Assembly (NCBI RefSeq): GCF_002266465.3 | Contig: NZ_CP029427.2 | Span: forward strand, 6,822,501 to 6,886,500 | Source: Bradyrhizobium symbiodeficiens | GTDB taxonomy: Bacteria; Pseudomonadota; Alphaproteobacteria; Rhizobiales; Xanthobacteraceae | Reading direction: 5' to 3' | DNA: 64,000 nucleotides | Shown here: positions 60,178 to 64,000 of the stretch, piece by piece | Layout of the letters: each line of letters starts with the position of its first letter | Position numbering within the stretch: position 1 is the first letter of the stretch | The notes under the pieces: generated by a model | Database searches by the model: none | The model's input: the letters and a program-made list of their open reading frames with translations, nothing else | Told to the model about the DNA's origin: nothing | Made by a program: the position numbers and the translations under genes

Positions 60178-60948
60178 CTATCCCGATACGAAGAACGCGA
60201 AAGACTCCTCCACTGTGCGGCGCAGGTGCTTTCGATATAATTCGTAGCTTGCATCATCGGAGCCGATTCGTCCCAGCGACGGCTTCGAGATGTTCTTCAG
60301 CGGCACGTAGGCGATCGGCGCCGCGATCGGCGTCAACTGCGAGCCAGGGCCGGCGCGGAGCGTCGAGATGATTCCGTACATCTCGCCGGCGACCGTCGGC
60401 CGCGACACCGTGATCACGCGATGCTGGCCGTGCTTGATGATGACGAGGTAGATGAAGCCTGACTGATGCGGGACGGCAACCTCGCCGGTATGCTCGTAGG
60501 CGGCATCGGTCCGATCGCCCTCCCGAAAGACCAGCGAAGAGACCTTCGGCTCCCAGACGATCTCGGTGCGGTACGCAAAGATTGCGTCCTTGTCGCCGAA
60601 GGACGGCCGCAAGGTGATGTAGACGTCCTCGAGCCAGGTCACGGCGCGATGCGCATAGGAGCCGAGGCTGTCAGGGGCGACATCGTTGGCGGCCTGAGGC
60701 GCCGCCACGACCGGGTTGTTGCGCAAGGAGACGCCCAGCGCCTGCTCCAGCCGGACCGTCGTCGCCAGCGTGAACGGTCGCCGGCCGCCGAGCACCTTCT
60801 CCAGCGTCGACAGGCTCAGCTTGGCCTGCTCGGCCAGCGTCTGCCGGGAGATTCGGCGCCTGGCGAGCTCCTCGCGAATGGTCTCGGCGATCTCGCGGCT
60901 CTGCTCGTCCGAAAGCTGCTTGTCGGTGATCTTGTCCTGCATCTGCAT
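60178..60948 (-). CDS. Helix-turn-helix (XRE-type) regulator with a C-terminal sensor-like region
   Basis: The product has 256 residues. A helix-turn-helix lies near the N-terminus (about 24-80: ISRQTLAEQAKLSLSTLEKV, then LGGRRPFTLATTVRLEQAL). The remaining 165 residues, with WLEDVYITLRPSFGDKDAIF and HGQHRVITVSRPTVAGEMYG, form an alpha/beta region I do not recognise, presumably for sensing or dimerisation. No signal peptide. It is divergent from the sortase-target gene with a 186-base gap, so control of that gene, or of itself, is a fair guess. Two ATGs start the frame (60948 and 60942). Confidence 0.8.
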   Translation of the reverse strand: MQMQDKITDKQLSDEQSREIAETIREELARRRISRQTLAEQAKLSLSTLEKVLGGRRPFTLATTVRLEQALGVSLRNNPVVAAPQAANDVAPDSLGSYAHRAVTWLEDVYITLRPSFGDKDAIFAYRTEIVWEPKVSSLVFREGDRTDAAYEHTGEVAVPHQSGFIYLVIIKHGQHRVITVSRPTVAGEMYGIISTLRAGPGSQLTPIAAPIAYVPLKNISKPSLGRIGSDDASYELYRKHLRRTVEESFAFFVSG

Positions 60949-61134
60949 CGCTAGCCCTGCTCCAGCACGGCCACTCTAGCAGGGCGGACAAACCAGCACA
61001 AAACCGCACATGAGCGCCCCGCGGCGGCTTGCCCGGGCCGGCCGCGGCGGAACATGACCGATCATTCTGCTCGCGAAATCGACCCCTCCCGGCGAAAGCT
61101 CAAAGCCAGCAAACGTCCCTCCGGGAGCAGACCA

Positions 61135-63396
61135 ATGGACAGCTACGATACGGCCGACAACGAAGAGCACCCCATGTTGAAGGCGCTGATCAAGCTCGGG
61201 TTGTTTCTTCTCGCGCAAGGCGTCGCGGTGATGCTGATGGCCTTCGTGGCCCTGCTGGTCAGTTTCGGGACCAGCTGGTCCGCAACGATCGAGCAGGCGA
61301 GCCTGCTTCAGCCCGGCGACGCCAAGTCCGGCTCCCTGCTCCTGAAGGAGGATGGCGCCACCACCGAAGCGATCCGCCTCGGCACCGACATCGACATCAC
61401 GGTCTCCGGCCCGACGCTGCGCGCGCGCGTCACCCAAATCTTCCGCAACCCGACCAAGGACTGGGTCGAGGCAACCTATGTCTATCCGCTCGCGACCGAC
61501 GGCGCCGTCGATACGCTGAAGATGGTGGTCGGCGGTCGCGTCATCGTCGGTGATATCAAGGAACGGCAGCAGGCCCGCGTGATCTACGAAGAGGCACGCC
61601 GCGCCGGCCAGAAGGCGGCACTCACCGAGCAGGAACGGCCGAACATCTTCACCAATTCGGTCGCCAATATCGGCCCTGGCGAGACCGTGCTGGTGCAGAT
61701 CGAATATCAGGAGTCGGTGCATCAATCCGGCAACGAATATTCACTGCGCCTGCCGCTGGTGGTCGGACCGCGCTACAATCCGGCGCCGATCGTCCAGAGC
61801 GTCGACTTCCGCAAGGACGGATCGGGCTGGGGCGCGGCGACCTCGGACCCCGTGCCGGACCGTGACCGCATCTCGCCGACTGTGCTGGATCCCGCCAGGA
61901 ATGCACCGGTCAATCCGACCAGCATCACGGTGCGCCTGAAGGCCGGCTTCGCGCTCGGCGAGGTCAGGAGTCATCACCATAACGTCAAGATCGAGAGCCC
62001 GGACAACATGGCGCGTGTCGTCACGCTCGCCGATGGCGCCGTTCCGGCGGACCGCGACTTCGAGCTGACCTGGAAGCCCGCCGCCGAGAAGGCGCCGTCG
62101 GTCGGCCTGTTCCGCGAACATGTCGGCGATGCCGACTATCTGCTGGCCTTCGTCACTCCGCCCAGCGCCGAGCAGACGGCGCAAAAGCCGCTACCGCGTG
62201 AGGTCGTGTTCGTGATCGACAATTCGGGGTCGATGGGCGGCACCTCGATCGTCCAGGCCAAGGCGAGCCTCGCTTACGCCTTGTCCCGGCTCCAGCCGAC
62301 CGACCGCTTCAACGTCATCCGTTTCGACGATACCATGGACCTGCTGTTTCCCACCTCCGTCCCGGCAGACGCCGCCCATGTCGGCGAGGCAACCTCGTTC
62401 GTGAGCGCGTTGCAGGCGCGCGGCGGCACCGAGATGGTGCCGGCGATGCGCGCCGCGCTGGCCGACAAGCTCGGCGACACCGGCATGGTTCGCCAGGTCG
62501 TCTTCCTGACCGACGGCGCAATCGGCAACGAGCAGCAATTGTTCGAAGCCATCACGGCGATGCGCGGCCGCTCGCGCGTCTTCATGGTCGGCATCGGGTC
62601 GACGCCAAACACCTATCTGATGACACGCGCCGCCGAGCTCGGCCGGGGCGCCTTCACCCATATCGGATCCGTCGAGCAGGTGGAGGAGCGCATGCGCGGC
62701 TTGTTCGCCAAGCTCGAAAATCCGGCCGTGACCGGGCTCACCGCGAAATTCTCCGAGGCCAGGGCCGACGTCACCCCGGCGATCATCCCCGACGTCTATC
62801 GCGACGAGCCGCTGGTGCTGGCGGCAAGGCTCGACAAGCTCGCAGGCTCGCTCGAGATCAAGGGGCGCGTCGGTGATCGTCCATGGTCGGTGACGCTGCC
62901 GCTGCAAGATGCCGCCGAAGGCAACGGCCTGTCGAAACTCTGGGCCAAGCGCAAGATCGGTGACGCCGAAGTGGCGCGCGCGATGCGGGAGCTCGCGCCC
63001 GAGGAGGCCGACAAGGCGATCCTGGCGCTGGCGCTCGACCATCAGATCGTCACGCGCCTGACCAGCCTTGTCGCCGTCGACAAGACGCCGAGCCGGCCCG
63101 AAGGCGCGCCGCTCAAGCTCAGCGAATTGCCGATCAACCTGCCGGCCGGCTGGGACTTCGAGAAGGTGTTCGGCGAACGGCCGCAGATCCCGGCGCAGTT
63201 GCGCGAACGGCATGCCGATGCGCGTACCGCACCGGCGGCGCGGCGTCCGGCACCCGCAGCGCCTGATGCGATCCGTCTGCCCAAGACGGCAACCTCAGCC
63301 GAGCTGAAGATGATCGCAGGCCTGATCCTGATCGTGCTCGCCTTAACCCTGTTCGTGTTCAACCGGCGTCGGCTCTTGCTCATCGACGCCGCTTGA
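61135..63396 (+). CDS. VIT/VWA-domain protein with LPKTA sorting signal (proteobacterial sortase target)
   Basis: The product has about 753 residues. A membrane segment or signal anchor is near the start (LGLFLLAQGVAVMLMAFVAL). A VIT domain follows (about 65-185), with RVTQIFRNPTKDWVEATYVYPL, cut here. Next is a VWA domain (about 355-530) with a full MIDAS DNSGS (D362, S364, S366), GGTEM and FLTDGA. The C-terminus has LPKTA (715-719), then a hydrophobic helix and FNRRR, the layout of a sortase signal. This matches the marine-type proteobacterial sortase target family, and a class GN sortase gene follows. The start at 61135 has GGGAG 7 bases upstream; an ATG at 61054 adds 27 polar residues. 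The function of the target is unknown. Confidence 0.9.
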   Translation: MDSYDTADNEEHPMLKALIKLGLFLLAQGVAVMLMAFVALLVSFGTSWSATIEQASLLQPGDAKSGSLLLKEDGATTEAIRLGTDIDITVSGPTLRARVTQIFRNPTKDWVEATYVYPLATDGAVDTLKMVVGGRVIVGDIKERQQARVIYEEARRAGQKAALTEQERPNIFTNSVANIGPGETVLVQIEYQESVHQSGNEYSLRLPLVVGPRYNPAPIVQSVDFRKDGSGWGAATSDPVPDRDRISPTVLDPARNAPVNPTSITVRLKAGFALGEVRSHHHNVKIESPDNMARVVTLADGAVPADRDFELTWKPAAEKAPSVGLFREHVGDADYLLAFVTPPSAEQTAQKPLPREVVFVIDNSGSMGGTSIVQAKASLAYALSRLQPTDRFNVIRFDDTMDLLFPTSVPADAAHVGEATSFVSALQARGGTEMVPAMRAALADKLGDTGMVRQVVFLTDGAIGNEQQLFEAITAMRGRSRVFMVGIGSTPNTYLMTRAAELGRGAFTHIGSVEQVEERMRGLFAKLENPAVTGLTAKFSEARADVTPAIIPDVYRDEPLVLAARLDKLAGSLEIKGRVGDRPWSVTLPLQDAAEGNGLSKLWAKRKIGDAEVARAMRELAPEEADKAILALALDHQIVTRLTSLVAVDKTPSRPEGAPLKLSELPINLPAGWDFEKVFGERPQIPAQLRERHADARTAPAARRPAPAAPDAIRLPKTATSAELKMIAGLILIVLALTLFVFNRRRLLLIDAA

Positions 63397-63425
63397 GAGA
63401 GGAGCCTCCCCGAACTCCTCTGTTA

Positions 63426-63474
63426 GCGCGCGCGGCTGCCCGTCCCATACCAACGGCCGCGCGCGCCTTTTTCG
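63426..63474 (+). terminator. Intrinsic terminator between sortase target and sortase
   Basis: GCGCGCGCGGC (63426-63436) pairs perfectly with GCCGCGCGCGC (63456-63466) around a 19-base loop, followed by CTTTTTCG. Placed between the target gene and the sortase gene, it could limit sortase transcript relative to target. Confidence 0.7.
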
Positions 63475-63477
63475 TAC

Positions 63478-63510
63478 TGTCATCGCGGCGAGCGAAGCGA
63501 CGAGAGTCCA
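63478..63510. repeat. Degenerate fragment of repeat family I before the sortase gene
   Basis: GTCATCGCGGCGAGCGAAGCGACGAGAGTCC resembles the left arm of the repeat at 51717-51802 with a few changes. Its GAGAG (63502-63506) is the apparent Shine-Dalgarno of the sortase gene. Only one arm is present. Confidence 0.5.
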
Positions 63511-63514
63511 TGCC

Positions 63515-64000
63515 ATGCCCCGCCTCTTATTTCCCCTGACTCTGGCCCTGATCGGCCTCATCCTGGTTGGCGACGGCGCCTACATCCACGCCAAGGCGTG
63601 GCTGGCGCAGGTGCTGCTTGAGCGCGCCTTCGACAAGAGCCTTGCGACGGGCGAGCCGGTCAAACCGTGGGCATGGGCCGACACCTGGCCGGTCGCGCGG
63701 ATCGAGGTGAAGCGGATCGGCGCCAGCGCGATCGTGCTGGAAGGCACCAGCGGCCAGGCGCTCGCCTTCGGGCCGGGCCATATCCAGCAAACGGTTGATG
63801 CCGGTGAGCGTGGAGTTGCCGTATACGCAGCGCATCGCAACACACATTTCCGTTTCCTGCGGAATGTCGCCGTCGGTGACGTGCTTGAGATCACGCGCCG
63901 CGACGGCAGGCATTTTCGCTATCGGGCGGATTCTTCGGCCGTTGTCCGTTTCGACACGTCCGGCATCGATCCCTCGACGCAGGGTGTGGAACTCGTGCTC
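63515..64000 (+). CDS. Class GN sortase, 5' part (cut by window end)
   Basis: The first 162 residues are visible. An N-terminal membrane helix (LLFPLTLALIGLILVGDGAY) and an AKAWLAQVLLERAFD stretch typical of class GN sortases are followed by PWAWADTWPVARIEV and the catalytic histidine block YAAHRNTHFRFLRNVAVGD (H107). The usual AGHRDTH reads AAHRNTH here. The catalytic cysteine (TCYPF region) and arginine lie beyond the window. The enzyme should cut the LPKTA signal of the protein encoded just upstream and process or anchor it at the inner membrane; the acceptor in this group is unknown. GAGAG lies 8 bases before the ATG. Confidence 0.92.
   Translation, partial: MPRLLFPLTLALIGLILVGDGAYIHAKAWLAQVLLERAFDKSLATGEPVKPWAWADTWPVARIEVKRIGASAIVLEGTSGQALAFGPGHIQQTVDAGERGVAVYAAHRNTHFRFLRNVAVGDVLEITRRDGRHFRYRADSSAVVRFDTSGIDPSTQGVELVL

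Follow-up and report, generated by a model that had tools for sequence, protein, structure and literature searches.

A class GN sortase, its VIT-VWA target and a divergent XRE-type regulator in Bradyrhizobium symbiodeficiens: a candidate three-gene cassette

The DNA analyzed here (the window) is a stretch of 64,000 nucleotides, bases 6822501-6886500 of one 7.03-Mb contig (NZ_CP029427.2) in the genome of Bradyrhizobium symbiodeficiens. At its right-hand end lies a gene for a protein with VIT and VWA domains and a C-terminal sorting signal, followed by a class GN sortase gene and preceded by a divergent regulator gene. The sortase gene crosses the window end and was completed from a fetched genome stretch reaching beyond the window (L003, in which L003:10126 is the equivalent of window position 64126). 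Below, G-numbers denote genomes, L-numbers denote loci, and G000 is the genome under study. The features of the locus are as follows.

60178..60948, minus strand: XRE-type regulator of 256 amino acids (aa), with an N-terminal helix-turn-helix (HTH) and a predicted C-terminal beta barrel, divergent from the target
60984..61010, minus strand: operator-like tandem repeats, TGTGCGGTTT TGTGCTGGTT TGTCCGC, with a 10-nucleotide (nt) period, in the shared intergenic region
61054..63396, plus strand: VIT-VWA sortase target (TIGR03788), 780 aa from the longest start (open reading frame [ORF]; NCBIfam)
61384..61707, plus strand: VIT domain (Pfam PF08487, aa 111-218 of the 780-aa form, E 3e-32)
62200..62652, plus strand: VWA domain with a complete metal ion-dependent adhesion site (MIDAS) (Pfam PF13768, aa 383-533, E 1.1e-19)
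63277..63291, plus strand: sorting motif LPKTA (aa 742-746; its profile matches once in the genome)
63310..63375, plus strand: C-terminal transmembrane helix, then RRR (read from the sequence)
63515..64000, plus strand, on to the equivalent of 64126 (L003:9515-10126): class GN sortase (TIGR03784), 203 aa (ORF; NCBIfam)

The divergent regulator and the operator-like repeats just upstream of the target had been missed in a preliminary description of the locus, made from the sequence alone. The target scored 802.9 bits against TIGR03788 (cut-off, 551.65 bits) and the sortase 201.9 bits against TIGR03784 (cut-off, 158.25 bits), both thresholds being NCBIfam curated equivalog cut-offs. Three starts were possible for the target, at 61054 (the longest form), at 61135 (used in the preliminary description) and at 61174, ahead of the hydrophobic N-terminus; the true start is probably the last of these (MLKALIK...). 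Pfam matches to both domains and the full set of MIDAS residues (D389-x-S391-x-S393, T459 and D487, within DNSGS at 62218, GGTEM at 62422 and LTDG at 62506) bore out the earlier assignment of a VIT-VWA protein with an intact MIDAS, and the LPKTA motif, the helix and the RRR that had been described as a sorting signal were all read in the target C-terminus. The best PDB sequence matches of the target were PARP4 and the inter-alpha-trypsin inhibitor heavy chains. These nearest PDB relatives by sequence have the VWA region in common with the target and also possess a VIT-VWA architecture; to our knowledge, they are animal proteins without an LPxTA signal. The earlier label of an adhesion-type domain is thus only one of the possible readings of VIT-VWA. 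Display at the surface or in the periplasm is plausible.

The sortase frame stayed open past the window end as far as the equivalent of 64126. His107 lies inside the window (63833-63835), and Cys165 and Arg177, which the preliminary description had expected beyond position 64000, were found just past it. These three catalytic residues were unchanged in 160 of 160 aligned sortases, a set in which named and unnamed loci overlap and some genomes are counted twice. An AlphaFold model of the sortase (34-row alignment) reached a predicted local distance difference test (pLDDT) score of 92 and showed a sortase fold. The sortase was the next gene after the target, as had been described, but not immediately so, since 118 nt separate the two genes (27-196 nt among nine loci of the genus); in 17 of 62 pairs measured, with start codons assigned mechanically, target and sortase overlapped by exactly 4 nt. 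Ratios of nonsynonymous to synonymous substitution rates (dN/dS) against eight congeners were 0.16-0.28 for the target, 0.14-0.25 for the sortase and 0.10-0.27 for the regulator, indicating that all three genes are under purifying selection.

The proposal that one enzyme serves one substrate was upheld at the genome level. Pfam PF04203 detected a single sortase in the genome, even at E 1, TIGR03788 had a single match at E<=0.001, and a profile of the sorting signal had a single match (E 8e-17) with no further one up to E 0.1. Applied to the 57 order genomes with a sortase, this profile picked up the known tail of the target in 51; its extra matches in them were at E 0.009 or worse, and all but one lacked the motif end. 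In the order sample (297 genomes), the sortase was over its cut-off in 57 genomes and the target over its own in 59, two targets being without a sortase. The pairing is not a matter of chance, because all 57 sortase genomes of the order also held a target over cut-off. In the phylum sample (398 genomes), 32 genomes had a sortase over cut-off, and 5 of the 22 sortase genomes outside the order scored under that cut-off. A scan of named genomes, covering the best 80 of at least 216 relatives, showed the sortase adjoining the target in 79 of 80 loci; the remaining locus (L250) stops at a contig edge.

The named carriers included Bradyrhizobium, Rhizobium, Ensifer and Methylobacterium, and also a few marine genera such as Hoeflea, Hyphomonas and Kiloniella. 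Given these carriers and the presence of the pair in 57 of the 297 order genomes, the earlier description as mainly marine does not apply to this branch. According to passages of a 2023 paper (PMC10581121), class GN sortases are poorly described, have an unknown role and occur in halotolerant proteobacteria alone, a restriction that our carriers do not seem to obey. Sortase matches in the plasmid database PLSDB came from 34 plasmid records, 13 of them alphaproteobacterial and the rest Gram-positive, and the best non-alphaproteobacterial matches were Bacillus class D sortases. The copies on Rhizobium, Phyllobacterium and Novosphingobium plasmids are already annotated as class GN sortase and target. 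The pair is a true member of the known TIGR03784/TIGR03788 family, already annotated in rhizobia, with both proteins over their cut-offs and adjacent as in the named system; it differs in occurring mostly outside marine genera, in its attached XRE-type regulator and in that PdsS and PdsO (see below) were not found. Two records titled Bacillus subtilis SK6B4 (L262) and Frankia sp. RB7 (L246) hold alphaproteobacterial cassettes and look misnamed or contaminated.

The N-terminus of the regulator matched HTH_31 and HigA, both below cut-off, and its C-terminal domain had no NCBIfam or Pfam match. In the AlphaFold model (20-row alignment; pLDDT 81), the HTH is joined to a beta barrel. Because the matches of this barrel to PDB structures were middling (Z 8-10; designed barrels, avidins and Cap15), no ligand is claimed, and a role as ligand sensor is a guess from the model. 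The regulator was found by profile in 30 of 81 loci. Across the order sample, 53 of 297 genomes matched at E<=1e-10, with 37 strong matches (at least 318 bits) and 16 weak ones (at most 167 bits). Strong matches fell in sortase genomes in 32 of 37 cases (32 of the 57 such genomes), 30 of the 32 within 1 kb of the target, a co-occurrence whose significance would be overstated by any test, since the genomes are related. Of the 80 named loci, 42 had the regulator; it was present, for instance, in most of those from Bradyrhizobium and missing from the main group of Rhizobium and Ensifer. Regulator, target and sortase occurred together on plasmids of Rhizobium sp. CCGE532, Phyllobacterium sp. 628 and Rhizobium tropici CIAT 899, and also, in another order, on Novosphingobium resinovorum pHR1a (L194), which PLSDB types as conjugative; a Rhizobium leguminosarum plasmid had the pair with no regulator beside it. 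The plasmid occurrences support the view of the cassette as a transferable module.

The heptamer TGTGCGG recurred upstream of regulator genes. With one mismatch allowed per word, 30 pairs of this heptamer had a spacing of 7-16 nt, and in every one of them the spacing was exactly 10 nt. Such a pair was present in 20 of 39 non-redundant upstream regions, whereas 200 dinucleotide shuffles averaged 0.055. The 39 regions were derived from 79 regulator loci, of which 5 had no anchor motif, by reducing the remaining 74 at <70% identity and leaving out regions shorter than 100 nt; 5 of the 39 (L167-L171) came from sortase-less loci. The heptamer was derived from these same upstream regions, so that the test is in-sample, with the spacing and the shuffles as its controls. 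In G000, TGTGCNGNNNTGTGCNG was found once, at window positions 60994-61010 between regulator and target, and the reversed control was absent; a pattern with 12 fixed bases should match about 0.8 times by chance, and the single hit tells us only that the genome has no second perfect site. The five sortase-less loci carry close homologs of the regulator next to other genes, and in L167 and L168 the homolog lies beside a similar divergent gene of ~500 aa and has like repeats upstream.

A dedicated sortase system consisting of PdsS (TIGR03785), PdsR (TIGR03787) and PdsO (TIGR03789) has the same target, sortase and single-target logic. At E<=1e-60, with up to 12 kinase candidates scored per genome, none of the 61 alphaproteobacterial sortase genomes (57 of the order and a further 4 of the class) gave a PdsS match, versus 18 of 18 sortase genomes outside, 12 of which were over the PdsS cut-off. 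PdsO was over cut-off in 0 of the 61 versus 10 of the 18. In G000 itself, no PdsS match was obtained at E<=1e-60 and no PdsO over cut-off, which places it outside the PdsS/PdsO system. Nine non-alphaproteobacterial loci had a PdsS-cluster kinase near the pair, eight with a response regulator and six with an OmpA-like gene, one cluster each; in L135, the kinase, the regulator and the OmpA-like gene were over the PdsS, PdsR and PdsO cut-offs. The cassette here thus lies in a branch in which neither PdsS nor PdsO turned up (the genome-wide searches covered these two and not PdsR), and, as judged by these profiles, this branch is distinct from the annotated Pds set. In the open-licence literature, covered partly through titles and abstract openings, we did not find a description of a variant with its own regulator and operator-like repeats and without PdsS and PdsO.

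The sorting motif was LPQTAT in 23 and LPKTAT in 15 of 56 targets of the order, and the fifth residue was Ala in 52 of these. The pattern used admits only A, G or S at that position and covers 56 of the 57 order targets; the motif of the remaining one (G094), read by eye, was LPEGAT. This loose pattern also fitted 18 of 21 targets outside the order, in which L was often replaced by Y, M, F or V. The top other NCBIfam sortase models for the sortase were of class D, and its best PDB sequence match was the class D enzyme 4d70 (Clostridium perfringens SrtD). Class D is therefore the nearest class by sequence models, with Ala after Thr in common, but its members are Gram-positive enzymes and the sortase scored 77.5 bits against the class D model NF033746, under the cut-off of 165. 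Gram-negative lipid II bears a meso-diaminopimelate amine, and we take Bacillus anthracis SrtC to be a further class D sortase. As stated in part of a review, SrtC cleaves LPNTA between T and A, using the amine of meso-diaminopimelate (PMC3297441). Since Gram-negative lipid II offers the very amine that this LPNTA-cutting sortase uses, the lack of a thick wall, raised earlier as an obstacle, loses its force. Mainly because class D is nearest and SrtC cuts LPNTA and uses meso-diaminopimelate, we propose that the acceptor amine is, by this analogy, most likely the diaminopimelate side chain of lipid II. The earlier statement that neither acceptor nor purpose is established agrees with our search of the open-licence literature, in which no paper was found that establishes either.

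On this basis, the following mechanism can be proposed. The VIT-VWA protein would be exported and, to judge by its anatomy, its C-terminal helix would keep it in the inner membrane; the sortase would be anchored by an N-terminal helix. With Cys165, His107 and Arg177 in a sortase fold, the enzyme would cut LPKT|A; an amine, for which meso-diaminopimelate in lipid II is the likeliest candidate, would then resolve the acyl enzyme and would leave the VIT-VWA protein covalently fixed to peptidoglycan in the periplasm. The divergent XRE/beta-barrel regulator may bind the 10-nt direct repeats between the genes, as the repeat statistics suggest, and would control itself and probably the module. We give about an even chance to this picture of a three-gene cassette in which the sortase fixes the VIT-VWA protein to peptidoglycan via diaminopimelate and the regulator acts at the repeats.

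Several observations weigh against this picture. The second PDB sequence match of the sortase was a class F enzyme (5uus), and structural comparison of the model left class D level with classes A, C, E and F, all at Z 18-19. Codon 109 of the sortase (63839-63841), two residues past the catalytic His, encodes Asn, where 159 of 160 aligned sortases have Asp, and the last ~14 residues (L003:10085-10126) have no counterpart in the eight congeners. Both the unique Asn109 and the changed tail would be expected if the sortase of this genome were impaired or decaying and the target stayed membrane-anchored. We regard this as very improbable, since the reading frame and the H, C and R are intact and the dN/dS is still low, and since a local sequence error is possible in a single assembly.

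The regulator is the second point of weakness. No strong regulator match was found in 25 of the 57 sortase genomes of the order, and five sortase-less genomes (G001, G068, G152, G208 and G289) had strong matches, beside other genes, which means that the regulator family is wider than the sortase system. In loci of the Methylobacterium type (L101, L120, L268, L272 and L274), the regulator follows the sortase and the repeats lie upstream of the regulator; none were found upstream of the target in L101 and L120, which were scanned whole. A single repeat pair was seen 145 nt upstream of the target in L108, and stray pairs elsewhere in the scanned loci. Because the repeats of L101 and L120 precede the regulator and none precede the target, the arrangement of the sites suggests that autoregulation is better supported than control of the target.

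The remaining contrary point concerns the acceptor: rhombosortase or exosortase T takes the place of the sortase beside homologous targets, a pattern that favors a lipid as the common acceptor. That this VIT-VWA family exchanges its tails among three kinds, LPXTG, PEP-CTERM and GlyGly-CTERM, was already reported in 2011 (part of PMC3237569), and homologs of the target in our samples likewise showed other tails. In six loci (L145-L149 and L151), an exosortase-cluster gene lies beside the target, followed by a response regulator and a kinase-cluster gene; the two of these exosortases that were tested scored 610 and 635 bits as exosortase T, and the response regulator of L145 scored 162 bits on the PdsR model, under the cut-off of 335.7. 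PEP-like tails were present in L145-L150 and not in the last 55 residues of L151, and the targets of L152, L153 and L156 had Gly/Ser-rich tails. Rhombosortase was surveyed in 18 genomes, 17 of them chosen for a VIT-VWA homolog, and was over cut-off in six (G028, G060, G097, G107, G138 and G251), in all six directly downstream of a VIT-VWA homolog. The best rhombosortase match of G000 (44.5 bits, under the cut-off of 84) lay at C1:4754598, far from the target, and no exosortase was seen among the scanned neighbors here, no genome-wide search having been made. In a tree of 67 loci, built by a quick method with the last 70 residues removed, each kind of target (LPxTA, rhombosortase and exosortase T [XrtT]) formed one clade on long branches; long-branch warnings apply to it, above all for L159 and for the joining of the XrtT and rhombosortase clades. 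These systems thus resemble the cassette in having homologous VIT-VWA substrates with the enzyme gene adjacent, and differ in that their enzymes are unrelated to sortase and their target clades are separate.

Such homologs raise the alternative that a lipid amine, for example that of phosphatidylethanolamine, receives the VIT-VWA protein from the sortase, so that the protein would be anchored by a lipid in the envelope or at the surface, as with rhombosortase. It draws on the same-order homologs directly upstream of rhombosortase in all six matches, on the Gly/Ser-rich tails of the three such targets that were read, on the other homologs beside an exosortase T-type gene, and on the PEP-like tails of six homologs. 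We know of no sortase that uses a lipid amine, and the LPxTA motif and the class D sequence relatives point instead to diaminopimelate; furthermore, the rhombosortase and XrtT targets form separate deep clades rather than recent swaps. The Vibrio rhombosortase substrate VesB acquires glycerophosphoethanolamine on its new C-terminus, according to part of PMC6219818, in keeping with a lipid-linked product. On balance, a lipid acceptor is unlikely. The bolder form of this idea, in which the sortase would be a lipid-anchoring transamidase acting with an ethanolamine-type lipid, three unrelated enzymes (sortase, rhombosortase and exosortase T) would converge on one lipidated VIT-VWA product, and an alphaproteobacterial one-component beta-barrel sensor would be dedicated to the locus, seems to us a shade less likely still. 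The sortase might also act as mainly a processing protease, hydrolyzing LPKT|A and so releasing the VIT-VWA domain to the periplasm. When neighbors were clustered in 81 loci, no widespread acceptor or pilin gene recurred beside the pair, as such a protease would allow, and the widest clusters besides the pair were the regulator (18 loci) and a response regulator (15 loci). The systems that replace the sortase are nevertheless sorting enzymes, and the published rhombosortase product carries a C-terminal modification (the same part of PMC6219818), which leaves a protease role rather improbable.

Attachment to peptidoglycan remains the reading we prefer, and loss events bear on the enzyme-motif relation that it includes. 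Within the LPxTA clade, G251 and its congener G268 stand beside G002 (support 92, short of the star mark of the program). The gene order in G002 is target, sortase and a sulfotransferase-like gene (a label from our own reading of its sequence). In G251, the target is followed 34 nt later by the same neighbor; the helix is kept, and there is neither an LPxT motif nor a sortase. G251 also holds a second, rhombosortase-paired copy. The enzyme and the motif were thus lost together while the protein was kept, which fits an enzyme acting on that motif. A profile search in all frames showed no significant sortase remnant in the sortase-less loci L143, L144 and L159; L144 breaks off at a contig edge 218 nt past the target, which makes local loss less certain there than in L143. 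In G009 (L159:6187-6768), a 193-aa ORF without an NCBIfam or sortase match occupies the place of the sortase. To the tails published in 2011, the present survey adds the adjacency of all three enzymes to such targets within one bacterial order, together with this co-loss.

Published expression data bear on the target in rhizobia. The named Ensifer adhaerens loci L206 and L208 have LPQTAT and an adjacent sortase. In the part of PMC6637203 concerned, the "marine proteobacterial sortase target protein" of E. adhaerens OV14 is given as the 80% counterpart of Sinorhizobium meliloti SMc01580, and a table lists, in two comparisons, SMc01580 as down-regulated and the OV14 gene as up-regulated. The link of SMc01580 to the target rests on this OV14 annotation. 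Portions of further papers report that ChvI bound the region upstream of SMc01580, one of three bound among 19 tested (PMC3687685), that the gene belongs to the early acid response (PMC2651895) and rises at pH 6 (PMC10659215), and that it is listed in phosphatidylcholine-deficient and Clr transcriptomes (PMC8343143; PMC5498481); the word sortase is absent from the main text of PMC10659215. The cassette is common among soil and plant bacteria that are open to genetic work, and having a single enzyme and a single substrate, often with a single regulator, it makes the role of a sortase in a Gram-negative envelope a tractable question. Relatives with a rhombosortase- or exosortase T-paired target, and relatives without the enzyme and the motif, provide natural comparators, and the adjacent conserved regulator with its likely DNA site makes the destination of the protein easier to test.

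Within the window, no RNA family was found at gathering scores, and a scan of L003:6900-10400 gave 0 sigma-70-type promoters. A CoA-ligase-like gene follows the sortase and, among the 81 loci, recurs only within the nine loci of the genus.

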